A DNA stretch of 20,348 bases from Mycobacterium sp. (lineage in GTDB: Bacteria > Actinomycetota > Actinomycetes > Mycobacteriales > Mycobacteriaceae). This document shows positions 4,368-11,218 of this stretch, in pieces (the stretch's first letter is position 1; every line of letters begins with the position of its first letter). The position numbers were made by a program, and so were the translations under genes. The DNA lies in the NCBI GenBank assembly GCA_019246375.1, contig JAFAQO010000297.1, positions 1 to 20,348 of the forward strand, read 5' to 3'. Under the pieces are notes generated by a model, which was not told the origin of the DNA, did no database searches, and worked only from the letters and a program-made list of their open reading frames with translations.

Positions 4368-4882
4368 GTCACACTCCCTTTCGGGCCGCCGTAGTCCTGC
4401 ATCCAGCGCGCGGCGTCGTCGTCGAGCGTGCCGAGCTCCCGAGCCTTCTTGCACCATTTCAGCGCTGCCTGCACAAAGCGCAGCGGGTTGTAAATGTCTT
4501 CTTGACGGCACCACCGGTTGCTGCCGGCGTAGGTGATGATCGAGATGTTCGTTGCGCTGATCACAGTGCCATCGCCCGGGTCGACCATCGGATTGTCCAG
4601 TTCGCAGATGATCCGGCCCGTGGACTCGTCGATGACCGACCACAGCGACGGGAACGCAGCCATGTGACTGCCGGGAAAGATACTCATCGTTCTGCGGATC
4701 CAGGCACGTACCTCGTCGCGGCCTTTCATGGTGCCCGCTGCGTGTTCGACGTACTCGACATCCGGGGTGTATTGCTCGGCCCAGGCATCCCAGTCTCGGG
4801 TTTCGGCAGCATAGGCAACCGTCTGCTCGAATTTTTCAAAAGCCGCCGACAGCTCCTCACGGCTGAACAGTTGGGTCGTCAC
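4364..4882 (-). CDS. SnoaL-like/nuclear transport factor 2 family protein
   Basis: A 172-residue SnoaL-like protein. The N-terminal helix, [18 protein letters not shown] (30-47) and [13 protein letters not shown] (50-62) are characteristic of the SnoaL_4/NTF2 group. The C-terminal part has a hydrophobic sheet ([11 protein letters not shown]) and a longer tail than the 131-residue NTF2 protein in this window. The start is GTG at 4882, with GAGG about seven bases upstream. Its stop overlaps the TTG of the downstream SDR, so the two are probably translated together and may act on one substrate; this is inference from context. It diverges from msrA across 123 bases. Recalled counterpart: Rv0138. 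Confidence 0.85.
4374..4378 (-). promoter_or_regulatory. Ribosome binding site deciding the TTG start of the SDR
   Basis: GGGAG on the minus strand lies six bases before TTG at 4367-4365. No in-frame ATG or GTG competes at this distance. The site lies inside the end of the SnoaL gene, as expected for a coupled downstream gene. Confidence 0.7.
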
Positions 4883-6480: not shown

Positions 6481-7830
6481 TCAGCGATGACGCCGATGCA
6501 CCACGATTCGGCCGCCGTCCTTCGGGGTGTATGCGACACCCCGAGCGTGCACCTTCTCGCCCGGAGCCGTGGTGGTCTGGATTGTGAAGTGCCGCAGCAC
6601 AGTTCGCAAGACCACGTCCATCTCCATGTTTGCGAATGCGGCGCCCACGCACCGCCGGGTGCCACCGCCGAATGGAATCCACGCGAACGTGGACGGCTTG
6701 TTGCCGAGGTAGCGTTTCGGATCGAACCGGTCGGGATCGGGGAAGGCGTCGGCATTGGCATGCATCCCCGCGATGCTGACGAAGATCGAATACCCGCGTG
6801 GGATCACCCACTCGCCGAGCTCGTACACCGGCGCGTAAACGTGGCGGCCGGCCGCATCGATGACGGTCCGGTTCCGCTGCACTTCGAGAATTGTCGCCTG
6901 GCGTAGCTCGTTGTCGTCGGTTTCGGCCTCCTCGACTAACGCCGAGAGTACGTCGCGGTGCCGGCTGAGCCGTTCGAAAGCCCAGCCCAGGGTGGCTGCA
7001 GTGGTTTCGTGTCCGGCGGCGAGCAGGGTCAGCAGCTCGTCCCCGATGTCTGCGCGTGACATGGCCGAGCCGTCCTCGTAGGTGCTGCGCAGCATCATCG
7101 CGAGTATGTCGCTGCGATCCTCGAAGTCCGGGTCCGCTCGCTCGGCAGCGATCAACTTGTCGATGACAACGTCGTACTTGCGCCGCCACTCCGCGAGCCG
7201 ACCCCACGGGCTGTAACGACCGTAGGTCCGGGTGGGTTTTGGCAGCGTTGCCAGCCGCGAACCGAGCGTGACCCACGGTGGGATGATCCGCCGCAGCACG
7301 TCGAGTTCGGCGCCCTCGGCACCGAAAACCGCACGCAATATGGCGTTGAGCGTGATCCGCATCGTCGACGGCAGAGTCGCGACCGCCTCGCCCTCCGGCC
7401 AGCCGGCAATCTCCCGGAGGGTCTCCTCTTCGATGATGTCCTCGTAGTTCTTGATGCTCTTGCCGTGGAAAGGCGGAGCCAGCAGTCGGCGCCGCCGGCG
7501 ATGGTCGTCGCCGTCGAGCGCGAAAACCGAGCCGGGCCCGAGCATCCGGCTCAGGTTGGGCTGAATATTGCCGAGAATTTCGGGGCTGGTGGTGAAGATC
7601 TGTTTGGCCAGCACCGGGTCGGCGACCACCACCGTGTGACCGTAGACCGGGACGTTGAGCATGAATGCGCTCCCGTAGCGGCGCGCAAGTTGTTGAATCA
7701 TCCAGCGACGTCTAGCGGCGAACCCGATGCCCTGTAGAAATGTGGGGATCGGCGGCGCCGGCGGCAGCTTGACGGCAGGCGGCGCCGTCGCGACTTGAGT
7801 CTCAGCTGCTGCTTCGCTCACGGGCTGCAC
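6481..7830 (-). CDS. cyp138: Cytochrome P450 of the CYP138 type
   Basis: A 449-residue haem monooxygenase. Landmarks: C-helix region DGDDHRRRRRLLAPPF (106-121), I-helix oxygen-binding motif AAGHETTA (271-278), ExxR motif as EVQR (316-319) and haem-binding loop FGGGTRRCVGAAF (387-399) with Cys394 as iron ligand. The overall sequence closely recalls M. tuberculosis CYP138 (Rv0136), an orphan P450. The frame extends upstream, but GTG 7830 is the best start: AGGAGG (7837-7842) lies six bases before it. GTG 7821 is an alternative. The gene diverges from a TetR gene, and two GGTAC-N6-GTACC repeats lie between them. No ferredoxin gene is adjacent. The natural substrate is unknown. Confidence 0.95.
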   Translation of the reverse strand: MQPVSEAAAETQVATAPPAVKLPPAPPIPTFLQGIGFAARRRWMIQQLARRYGSAFMLNVPVYGHTVVVADPVLAKQIFTTSPEILGNIQPNLSRMLGPGSVFALDGDDHRRRRRLLAPPFHGKSIKNYEDIIEEETLREIAGWPEGEAVATLPSTMRITLNAILRAVFGAEGAELDVLRRIIPPWVTLGSRLATLPKPTRTYGRYSPWGRLAEWRRKYDVVIDKLIAAERADPDFEDRSDILAMMLRSTYEDGSAMSRADIGDELLTLLAAGHETTAATLGWAFERLSRHRDVLSALVEEAETDDNELRQATILEVQRNRTVIDAAGRHVYAPVYELGEWVIPRGYSIFVSIAGMHANADAFPDPDRFDPKRYLGNKPSTFAWIPFGGGTRRCVGAAFANMEMDVVLRTVLRHFTIQTTTAPGEKVHARGVAYTPKDGGRIVVHRRHR

Positions 7831-7836
7831 TCCCAA

Positions 7837-7842
7837 CCTCCT
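7837..7842 (-). promoter_or_regulatory. Ribosome binding site deciding the cyp138 GTG start
   Basis: A perfect AGGAGG on the minus strand lies six bases upstream of GTG 7830. It excludes the longer in-frame extension, which would run through the operator region. It begins four bases from the nearer inverted repeat, so a repressor bound there could also occlude initiation. Confidence 0.75.
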
Positions 7843-7846
7843 GCAT

Positions 7847-7862
7847 GGTACTGCGGTGTACC
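7847..7862. promoter_or_regulatory. Candidate TetR operator A (GGTAC-N6-GTACC)
   Basis: A perfect inverted repeat of GGTAC and GTACC separated by TGCGGT; the next outer base pair (T/A) also pairs. It lies in the presumed leader of cyp138. It has the same arms and spacer length as operator B, with centres 34 bases apart. Confidence 0.65.
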
Positions 7863-7872
7863 ACCGGTGTCT

Positions 7873-7879
7873 TACGATA
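7873..7879. promoter_or_regulatory. Overlapping divergent -10-like hexamers for tetR and cyp138
   Basis: TACGAT on the plus strand (7873-7878) and TATCGT on the minus strand (7874-7879) both match TANNNT and overlap back to back. They would start tetR near 7885, inside operator B, and cyp138 near 7867, next to operator A. This geometry suits simultaneous repression of both genes. No good -35 elements are visible. Confidence 0.35.
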
Positions 7880-7880
7880 C

Positions 7881-7896
7881 GGTACCGTGTGGTACC
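7881..7896. promoter_or_regulatory. Candidate TetR operator B (GGTAC-N6-GTACC)
   Basis: A second perfect GGTAC/GTACC inverted repeat, here around CGTGTG. It also contains the 10-bp palindrome ACGGTACCGT at its left edge (7879-7888). It lies within the cyp138/tetR intergenic region and covers the predicted tetR start of transcription. Confidence 0.65.
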
Positions 7897-7927
7897 AACC
7901 ACTGGCAAGCGTTCATTGGAAGAGGGC

Positions 7928-8539
7928 ATGGTCGTGACAGCAGTGGCTGGCGACGCAGCTTACGTCGACATCGATCCGTTTCGGCGCCGGCTGCTCGACG
8001 GCCTCGCCGCCTCGATCGGCGAACGTGGGTATCGCGCTACTACCGTCGCCGACATCGTCCGGCACGCGCGTACCTCGAAGCGCACCTTCTATGACCAGTT
8101 CGCCAGTAAAGAGCAGTGTTTTCTCGAGTTGCTTCGCGCGGACACCGAGCAGCTGGCTGAAGAGATCCGGGCGGCCGTTAGTCCAGAGGCCGACTGGCAT
8201 CGTCAGATTCGTCAGGCGGTCGAAGCCTACGTCGGCCACATCAAGTCCCGGCCGGCGATCACGTTGAGCTGGATCCGTGAGCTTCCTTCACTTGGTGCGG
8301 CCGCCCGTCCGGTTCAGCGCCACGGATTGGAATTATTGACCAGACTGTTGATCGACCTCAGTGGCAGCGCAGGATTCCGGCGCGCCGAGCTGGGACCGCT
8401 GACACCGCCGTTGGCGGTAATCCTGTTAGGTGGACTGCGGGAATTGACCGCGCTGGCCGTCGAAGACGGCAAAGACGTGGCCGAGATCGTCGAACCCGCG
8501 GTGACCGCTTCCGTAGCCCTGCTCGGCGCCCGACACTGA
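7928..8539 (+). CDS. TetR family regulator divergent from cyp138
   Basis: A 203-residue TetR/AcrR-type repressor. The N-terminal helix-turn-helix lies at about 22-62: GYRATTVADIVRHARTSKRTFYDQFASKEQCF contains the conserved TT-V-I, Tyr55, Phe58 and K61-E62 positions. The C-terminal ligand domain is a helical bundle without a recognisable ligand signature. ATG 7928 is preferred, with GGAAGAGGG (7918-7926) upstream; GTG 7934 is a close alternative. The ORF is open further upstream into the operator region. Divergence from cyp138 and the paired repeats at 7847-7896 point to autorepression and control of the P450. Recalled counterpart: M. tuberculosis Rv0135c. Confidence 0.93.
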   Translation: MVVTAVAGDAAYVDIDPFRRRLLDGLAASIGERGYRATTVADIVRHARTSKRTFYDQFASKEQCFLELLRADTEQLAEEIRAAVSPEADWHRQIRQAVEAYVGHIKSRPAITLSWIRELPSLGAAARPVQRHGLELLTRLLIDLSGSAGFRRAELGPLTPPLAVILLGGLRELTALAVEDGKDVAEIVEPAVTASVALLGARH

Positions 8540-10073: not shown

Positions 10074-11132
10074 CTATAGGGCGAGCTCGACATCACCGAC
10101 GGGAACAGACACGCAGATTTGCACGTCCTCGTCGGGGTTGGTCGAGACGCCTCCGGTGGTGAGGTTGCGCACGACGCCGCTGGTTTTGCGCCGGGTGCAG
10201 GTGTGGCAGATGCCCATGCGGCATCCGCTCTCTGGTGCCAGCCCGGCCGCCTCGGCCTGCTCCAGCAGGGGCCGGCCGTCGTCGACGACGTCAATGCCAC
10301 TGCTCGCAAACGTCACTCGGCCGCCCGACGGCTTAGCGGGCAATTCGACCGTCGGGGCCACGAAGCTTTCCGACTGCGCGTTCGGGCAGTGCTCGCGGAC
10401 GGCGTCCACCAAAGGAACTGGCCCGCAGACGAATACCGCATCTGGTGACGGCATGGCCGCCGCCAGGTGCTCCGGCCCGAAGCGGCCAGTCAAGTCGCCC
10501 GCGCCCGACCGGGTGTACCCGTGCAGCACATGCACGTGGGCCATCGCGGCCAGTTCGTCGCGGTAGCAGGCCTCCGCGGGATTGCGCGCGTAGTGGATGA
10601 ATGCGATGTCCCCGTCGTGGCCTTCAGCGACCAGTGTGCGCAGCATCGCCAGCACCGGCGTGATGCCGCTGCCGCCGGAGACGAACAGAATGCGTCGGGG
10701 ACGACGAGCTGGGAGTACGAAGTCACCGCCGACGTTGCTTAGTGCTACCACCATCCCCGGGCGGGCCTGCTCGTAGAGGTAGGACGAGACCAGTCCGTCG
10801 TCGTGGCGGCCGATCGTCAACTCGAGGTCGCCTGCGCCTTCGGCGTTGGCAGGCGAATAGCAGCGGGTGTGCCGGCGCCCGTCGATCTCAACGGTGATGT
10901 TGACGTACTGGCCGGCCTTGACGGTGTGACCACAGAAGGCCGCATTCGGCTCGAGAGTGAGCGTGATGCTCCGCGAGGTGGTCCGGCACGCCTCGATGAC
11001 CTTGGCGCGGGCTTCTCCCAGCGTCCAGGTCGGAGCCACCAGCTCGGTGTACCGGTCGACGCCGTGCGGCCCGGTGAGCAGGTCGACCAGGTCTGAGCCT
11101 AGGACCCGCTGAGCAAGCGTTTTAGTGAACAT
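10074..11132 (-). CDS. Ferredoxin reductase-ferredoxin fusion, electron donor to desaturase
   Basis: A 352-residue flavin/iron-sulfur oxidoreductase like M. tuberculosis Rv3230c, the partner of DesA3. The FAD motif RCYS is at 90-93, the pyridine-nucleotide site GGSGITP at 153-159, and CGP at 236-238. A C-terminal plant-type [2Fe-2S] domain has Cys304, Cys309, Cys312 and Cys340. Electrons would pass from NAD(P)H via FAD and the cluster to the desaturase. The likely start is ATG 11132, giving MFTKTLAQRVLGSDL as in homologs; a longer in-frame ORF begins at 11198. No Shine-Dalgarno sequence is visible and CACAGT sits at leaderless spacing, so the mRNA may be leaderless. A FabR-like box covers the start codon. 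Confidence 0.92.
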   Translation of the reverse strand: MFTKTLAQRVLGSDLVDLLTGPHGVDRYTELVAPTWTLGEARAKVIEACRTTSRSITLTLEPNAAFCGHTVKAGQYVNITVEIDGRRHTRCYSPANAEGAGDLELTIGRHDDGLVSSYLYEQARPGMVVALSNVGGDFVLPARRPRRILFVSGGSGITPVLAMLRTLVAEGHDGDIAFIHYARNPAEACYRDELAAMAHVHVLHGYTRSGAGDLTGRFGPEHLAAAMPSPDAVFVCGPVPLVDAVREHCPNAQSESFVAPTVELPAKPSGGRVTFASSGIDVVDDGRPLLEQAEAAGLAPESGCRMGICHTCTRRKTSGVVRNLTTGGVSTNPDEDVQICVSVPVGDVELAL

Positions 11133-11141
11133 GCGTACACT
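11124..11141. promoter_or_regulatory. FabR/DesT-like operator 1 over the reductase start codon
   Basis: AGTGAACATGCGTACACT is an 18-bp imperfect palindrome (6 of 7 arm positions pair around four bases). Read on the other strand, AGTGTACGCATGTTCACT closely resembles the E. coli FabR box as I recall it (AGCGTACA-NN-TGTTCGCT) and shares AGTGAAC with the Pseudomonas DesT site. It spans the reductase ATG (11130-11132). A FabR/DesT-like regulator is encoded next door. Confidence 0.7.
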
Positions 11142-11188
11142 GTGCGACGCGCTGCTGCAGTTCGTCAAGCATTTTCGCAGCTCTGTGG

Positions 11189-11194
11189 TAGGGT
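11189..11194 (+). promoter_or_regulatory. -10 element of the FabR/DesT-like tetR gene
   Basis: TAGGGT fits TANNNT and lies seven bases before GTG 11202, so transcription would begin at or one base before the start codon. There is no Shine-Dalgarno sequence, which together suggests a leaderless mRNA. Confidence 0.55.
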
Positions 11195-11200
11195 TCACAC

Positions 11201-11218
11201 AGTGAACAGCCGTACGCC
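11201..11218. promoter_or_regulatory. FabR/DesT-like operator 2 over the tetR start codon
   Basis: AGTGAACAGCCGTACGCC matches operator 1 at 14 of 18 positions in the same orientation, including AGTGAAC and GTAC at identical spacing. It spans GTG 11202. A separate perfect inverted repeat, GTTCAC-ACA-GTGAAC (11193-11207), overlaps its left half and the -10 element. Either could be the actual binding frame. Confidence 0.55.

Follow-up and report, generated by a model that had tools for sequence, protein, structure and literature searches.

The window analysed here is the whole of a 20,348-nucleotide stretch of a Mycobacterium sp. genome (contig JAFAQO010000297.1, assembly GCA_019246375.1). It carries a gene for a TetR-family regulator (tetR) that diverges from genes for a reductase and a membrane fatty-acid desaturase, the latter two probably sharing an operon (Table 1). 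Two 18-base sequences, box 1 (AGTGAACATGCGTACACT) and box 2 (AGTGAACAGCCGTACGCC), agree at 14 of 18 positions and overlie the two divergent start codons: box 1 the reductase ATG (11132-11130, minus strand) and box 2 the tetR GTG (11202-11204). The first-pass annotation of this DNA had pointed to these 18-mers, and their positions, mutual agreement and cover of both start codons are all borne out. The two are a conserved, operator-like pair that fits a recognised type of circuit, one with few descriptions in this genus.

Table 1 Genes, boxes and predicted promoter elements at the tetR-reductase locus
Feature	Coordinates	Strand	Remarks
Membrane fatty-acid desaturase, 370 aa	8929..10041	-	PF00487, E 8e-32
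FAD/NAD/2Fe-2S reductase, 352 aa	10074..11132	-	PF00970, PF00175, PF00111
Box 1, operator-like 18-mer	11124..11141	+	Over reductase start; would span -9 to +9 of the reductase operon
Predicted -10 of reductase operon (CACAGT)	11139..11144	-	Overlaps box 1; ATG after 6 more bases
Predicted -35 of reductase operon (TTGACG)	11163..11168	-	TTGAC conserved
Predicted -10 of tetR (TAGGGT)	11189..11194	+	7 bases upstream of GTG
TTCAC half-site facing box 2	11194..11198	+	TTCAC-N3-GTGAAC in window
Box 2, operator-like 18-mer	11201..11218	+	Over tetR GTG start
TetR-family regulator, 224 aa	11202..11876	+	DesT/FabR family, actinobacterial branch

Two conserved boxes over divergent start codons

Compared with the Escherichia coli FabR motif (printed in PMC4273635), box 1 is identical at 14 and box 2 at 13 of 18 positions; among 20,000 18-mers sampled from the window, a fraction of 5e-5 reached 13. 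A pattern derived from both boxes had no further match in the window at up to 2 mismatches, and at least two matches appeared in 2 of 100 shuffles, a weak test because the pattern comes from the boxes themselves.

Comparison between loci is a stronger test. The TetR protein had 307 relatives in one scan of the genome collection. Of these, the best 80 (78 to 90% identical by best segment) and the window make up a set of 81 loci; being the nearest relatives, the 80 are not independent samples. The proposal in the first-pass annotation depended on the 18-mers being kept among orthologues, and they are: box 1 occurs in 80 of the 80 loci that reach that far (79 by the strict pattern and L034 with a different first base; L008 ends earlier) and box 2, as GTGAA[C/T]NNNCGT, in 81 of 81. 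Across this set box 1 begins 78 to 80 bases upstream of the tetR start. A weight matrix was built from the 39 distinct box sequences of the window and the 80 loci, which the boxes fit by construction. In the window it gave 27.4 for box 1 and 26.3 for box 2, and beyond the two boxes the scan exceeded 8 only for box 1 read on the other strand (10.6). Over the 80 loci (681,385 bases) there were 171 matches above 15, comprising 79 of box 1, 4 of box 1 on the other strand, 80 of box 2 and 8 just 3' of the tetR stop codon.

As a check, 20 genomes were drawn from the most distant part of the list of relatives (74 to 80% identical). All 20 have a box 1 scoring at least 25 and a second box scoring at least 15.0, the second lying 77 to 80 bases beyond box 1 in 16 and 153 bases beyond it in four. 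Likeness to the E. coli motif, together with this conservation, supports the reading of both as conserved operator-like sites of the FabR/DesT kind; the first-pass annotation had called them FabR/DesT-like boxes.

Some details of box distribution stand apart from this comparison. The four loci with the wider spacing (L255, L256, L258 and L260, from G177, G157, G124 and G020) have a third box or its remnant about 78 bases after box 1, and all three boxes of L256 are strong. A box-like site (AGTGAACA..CGAACACT or near) lies about 14-40 bases 3' of the tetR stop codon (about 4689-4715) in 8 of the 80 loci (L019, L030, L033, L042, L063, L071, L075 and L077); the gene beyond it appears convergent in the four inspected (L019, L042, L063 and L071). 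The exact pattern missed boxes in several regulator-bearing genomes (zero matches in G020), where the boxes depart from it, so exact-pattern counts are too low. Most one-mismatch matches of loose patterns are probably due to chance (15 and 21 against 14 and 20 in the reversed control); in another loose-pattern search, matches exceeded the reversed control in the genomes searched, among the matches listed. Candidate sites in L127 and L128 were inspected and dropped.

Probable leaderless starts and constraint on the DNA

Conserved promoter-like elements lie close to both divergent start codons. Upstream of the reductase ATG, TTGAC at -36 to -32, A at -11 and T at -7 are present in all 80 loci, and TANNNT lies 7 to 9 bases upstream of the tetR start in 80 of 81. 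The tetR gene starts with GTG in 81 of 81 loci and the reductase with ATG in 78 of 80 (GTG in the other 2). Opposite box 2 a TTCAC half-site is found in 80 of 81 loci, the gap being 3 bases in 62, 4 in 17 and 5 in 1. From this arrangement we infer that both mRNAs are leaderless, with box 1 on the -10 end and the start, and box 2 on the start. The locus offers a clear natural example of operator-like sites inside the first codons of probably leaderless genes.

Sites so placed could owe their conservation to translation, the start region and early codons being kept for the ribosome and not as operators. We consider this very improbable. The boxes do sit on start codons, and early codons are biased also beyond box 1, where Thr codon 5 of the reductase is ACT in 39 of 68 cases. 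At tetR codon 4, by comparison, Arg is CGT in 81 of 81 loci, against 27 of 177 Arg codons at positions 9 to 12 and 225 of 2430 in the remainder of tetR. ACC never encodes Thr at tetR codon 5 (0 of 69 cases, against 731 of 974 elsewhere), and in the reductase the Thr at codon 3 is encoded by ACT in 74 of 80 cases, against 136 of 1808 elsewhere. The non-coding upstream half of box 1 is conserved almost as well as its coding half, and similar 18-mers occur away from start codons, upstream of an acyl-CoA dehydrogenase gene (fadE) and, in genome G198, of a second desaturase gene. The conservation of the boxes acts on the DNA, not on the protein.

A DesT/FabR-family regulator beside a desaturase operon

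The tetR product has a TetR_N DNA-binding domain (PF00440, E 5e-11, 42.6 bits against 24), which places it in the TetR family. Reductase and desaturase genes share the strand opposite tetR in all 79 loci long enough to show both (L008 stops short). This is the layout of the DesT system, a regulator divergent from a reductase and desaturase operon, in which DesC is the reductase. DesT is the best match in both sequence and fold, the fold similarity extending to liganded DesT entries, and FasR is a structural relative; such fold-match lists give no evidence of absence. Full-length homology, the shared fold, similarity well above that to other TetR proteins, and the presence near the target starts of an 18-bp site that resembles the E. 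coli FabR motif all place the protein in the DesT/FabR family in the wide sense.

The first-pass annotation had described the protein as very like E. coli FabR. Wide family membership stands, whereas identity with FabR does not: the FabR equivalog model (NF008402, NCBIfam) scores it at 132.3 bits, under the curated cut-off of 151, and E. coli FabR at 413.9. In the tree DesT and FabR group together (98/96 support) and the tetR product falls with other actinobacterial proteins, with a long-branch warning that includes DesT; the tree gave no DesT clade that holds the tetR product and excludes other FabR-family proteins. "FabR-like" therefore denotes kinship, not identity. Sequence comparison supports a FabR/DesT-family protein beside a desaturase operon.

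Proposed circuit

We propose, with considerable confidence, that the tetR product is a DesT/FabR-type repressor that acts at both boxes on the reductase-desaturase operon and on its own gene. The protein would bind each box and repress from it. On box 1 it would block the operon by covering its -10 end, its transcription start and its ATG; on box 2 it would cover the start of its own leaderless gene. By analogy with DesT, the acyl chain of a bound acyl-CoA may set the affinity, such that a surplus of saturated chains would switch the desaturase on.

An alternative keeps the DesT-type form and gives the protein a ligand other than a C16-C18 acyl-CoA saturation signal, perhaps a different lipid or a thioester with a very long chain. 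We regard this as unlikely, though it deserves serious consideration. Identity to DesT is just 36% over 202 residues, a box-bearing paralogue faces a P450 gene, and Di Capua et al. 2017 (doi 10.1111/mmi.13753) reportedly proposed that MSMEG_1742-43, the probable counterpart gene pair in M. smegmatis, acts on C18:0 and C24:0. Fold and target genes, on the other side, match DesT, and no measurement here indicates a different ligand.

Relation to known systems

Di Capua et al. 2017 are also said to have proposed a repressor role for MSMEG_1741 beside MSMEG_1742-1743 and to have distinguished two desaturase sets. Given that proposal, the link between regulator and operon has probably been published already. 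We know of no operator for MSMEG_1741-1743 and, to our knowledge, the operators of this cassette are unpublished; MadR is the only worked-out mycobacterial desaturase regulator known to us. The MadR gene is not known to be adjacent to desA1 or desA2. A literature search that covered few subscription papers found MadR, no operator for this cassette, and MSMEG_1741 in no main text.

MSMEG_1741-1743 is probably the orthologous cassette, with an oxidoreductase, MSMEG_1742 (passages of PMC5445863), and a cold-raised desaturase, MSMEG_1743 (5.45 at the first time point of cold stress in passages of PMC10454040), a rise that fits membrane control. Passages of PMC10699116 pair MSMEG_1743 with Rv3229c desA3, and those of PMC9861118 pair MSMEG_1886 with it instead.

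Passages of PMC8872791 describe the mycobacterial MadR (Rv0472c / MSMEG_0916) as a TetR protein that represses desaturase genes and responds to acyl-CoA. The first-pass annotation knew of no such circuit in mycobacteria; to conclude that none has been described would be too strong, given MadR and the proposal of Di Capua et al. 2017. MadR appears to differ from the present regulator in its consensus, and it has other target desaturases (desA1 and desA2, of mycolic acids).

Outside the genus, three systems are close in kind. (i) DesT/desCB of Pseudomonas aeruginosa shares the wide TetR family and a regulator divergent from the desaturase gene (passages of PMC4273635); unlike the tetR product, DesT clusters with FabR, away from the actinobacterial proteins, and the window has two boxes, each on a probably leaderless start. 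(ii) FabR/desA of Shewanella oneidensis also has a divergent desaturase gene, and its 18-bp box starts, much as in the window, at the predicted point of transcription initiation, in a different phylum; the same passages describe one box, which differs from boxes 1 and 2 at 7 and 5 of 18 positions. (iii) E. coli FabR (fabA, fabB) shares the wide family and the motif, whereas its targets are anaerobic unsaturated fatty-acid genes with no aerobic desaturase, and its family cut-off lies above the score of the window protein.

Spread of the regulator and possible further targets

The survey of the genus took in 198 genomes, that of the window among them. A tetR homologue was found at E <=1e-80 in 175, at about 2e-37 to 1e-50 in 8 and as weak matches only in 15; the grouping is the analyst's, and several of the 15 are incomplete assemblies. 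A phylum-wide search gave a match at <=1e-15 in 18 of 296 genomes; the window's genus accounts for five of these, one being the genome from which the window comes. At 14 loci outside the genus, a box above 15 is present in 11 and a reductase-like frame in 6 (L241-L245, L254), and no desaturase was recognised within flanks of 1.5 kb. Regulator, reductase, desaturase and two boxes are all present in G198, whose regulator is identical to a protein named Frankineae bacterium MT45 and in which the box upstream of the second desaturase is palindromic.

These data bear on whether the boxes are operators of another regulator, such as MadR or FasR, the neighbouring TetR protein answering to something else. 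Mycobacteria do have further acyl-CoA-responsive TetR proteins, of which MadR regulates desaturases (passages of PMC8872791), and FasR is related in structure. The MadR consensus, TCTGTGxxxxxxxGT, nevertheless bears no evident resemblance to the boxes (AGTGAACA....GTAC) in a by-eye comparison of the sites alone. In the 15 genomes that lack a close homologue of tetR, the exact pattern matched 4 times and its reversed control 3 times. Of those 4 matches, the one in G182 (score 17.2) is box-2-like and lies, by frame reading, among sugar-nucleotide genes and not at a desaturase. The boxes, moreover, accompany FabR-like regulators into other genera. We judge it improbable that the boxes belong to another regulator.

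Upstream of fadE in the genome that holds the window lies a box with a score of 29.6. A box above 15 precedes 12 of 50 surveyed fadE orthologues (10 of 30 loci and 2 of 20 further regions, the partial fadE of G031 and pattern-search sites in G117, G060 and G186 being excluded); none of 290 composition shuffles (5 for each of 58 short regions) passed 15, the maximum being 14.3. The same regulator probably also controls this acyl-CoA dehydrogenase gene in some lineages, the window's genome included.

The fnr1-desA3 promoter was rejected as a general target, since just 2 of 25 regions from regulator-bearing genomes scored above 15 (L180, L186). The 25 regions represent 23 genomes, the fnr1 regions of G001 and G045 being left out, and L182, L185 and L192 score 10.1. 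No site above 15 was found in 10 regions from regulator-less genomes or in 3 from abscessus-type genomes, a label that, like "streptomycete-like", is a guess.

Several observations weigh against repression by the tetR product from both boxes as set out above, or against parts of it. Box 2 pairs at 5 of 9 positions and so makes a poor palindrome, against 6 of 9 in box 1. The bias at reductase codon 5 points to some general early-codon effect, and tetR codon 8, beyond box 2, is TCA in 73 of 81 loci, so conserved DNA extends past the box; both results weaken the DNA-level argument somewhat. A promoter-like sequence at -96 is listed for MSMEG_1742 in passages of PMC5445863, counter to a sole leaderless start. 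The related cassettes L132, L169 and L241 have a single promoter box or a weak one, and at the eight loci of genus g15 a motif search of 1.5 kb flanks found neither reductase nor desaturase. With 12 of 50 orthologues bearing a box, the fadE link is lineage-bound.

More tentatively, we suggest a mycobacterial DesT-type regulator that works through operators fused to leaderless start codons, so that the same short stretch of DNA serves as operator and coding sequence, marks the promoter edge and the ribosome start, and constrains the first residues of two proteins, with desaturation coupled to chain breakdown through the acyl-CoA dehydrogenase in part of the genus. For cassette-bearing mycobacteria the boxes provide an operator map, open to testing, of the control of unsaturated fatty acids.

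Other observations

In the regulator-less genome G002 only a C-terminal piece of a window-like desaturase remains (L135, 3087 onward). An extra reductase gene with two boxes occurs in G001 and G006 (L177 1462-1566; L178 1237-1342); its homologue in G004 (L216) has no boxes. Positions 6481-8539 of the window hold a second TetR gene and a divergent P450 gene, whose predicted frames overlap at their starts, and no box lies there. A second FabR-like TetR gene in G050 and G092 (L167 692-1492; L168 740-1545) faces a small frame with a P450 gene beyond it. Boxes stand on both sides, and in L168 one of them is weak (12.3).
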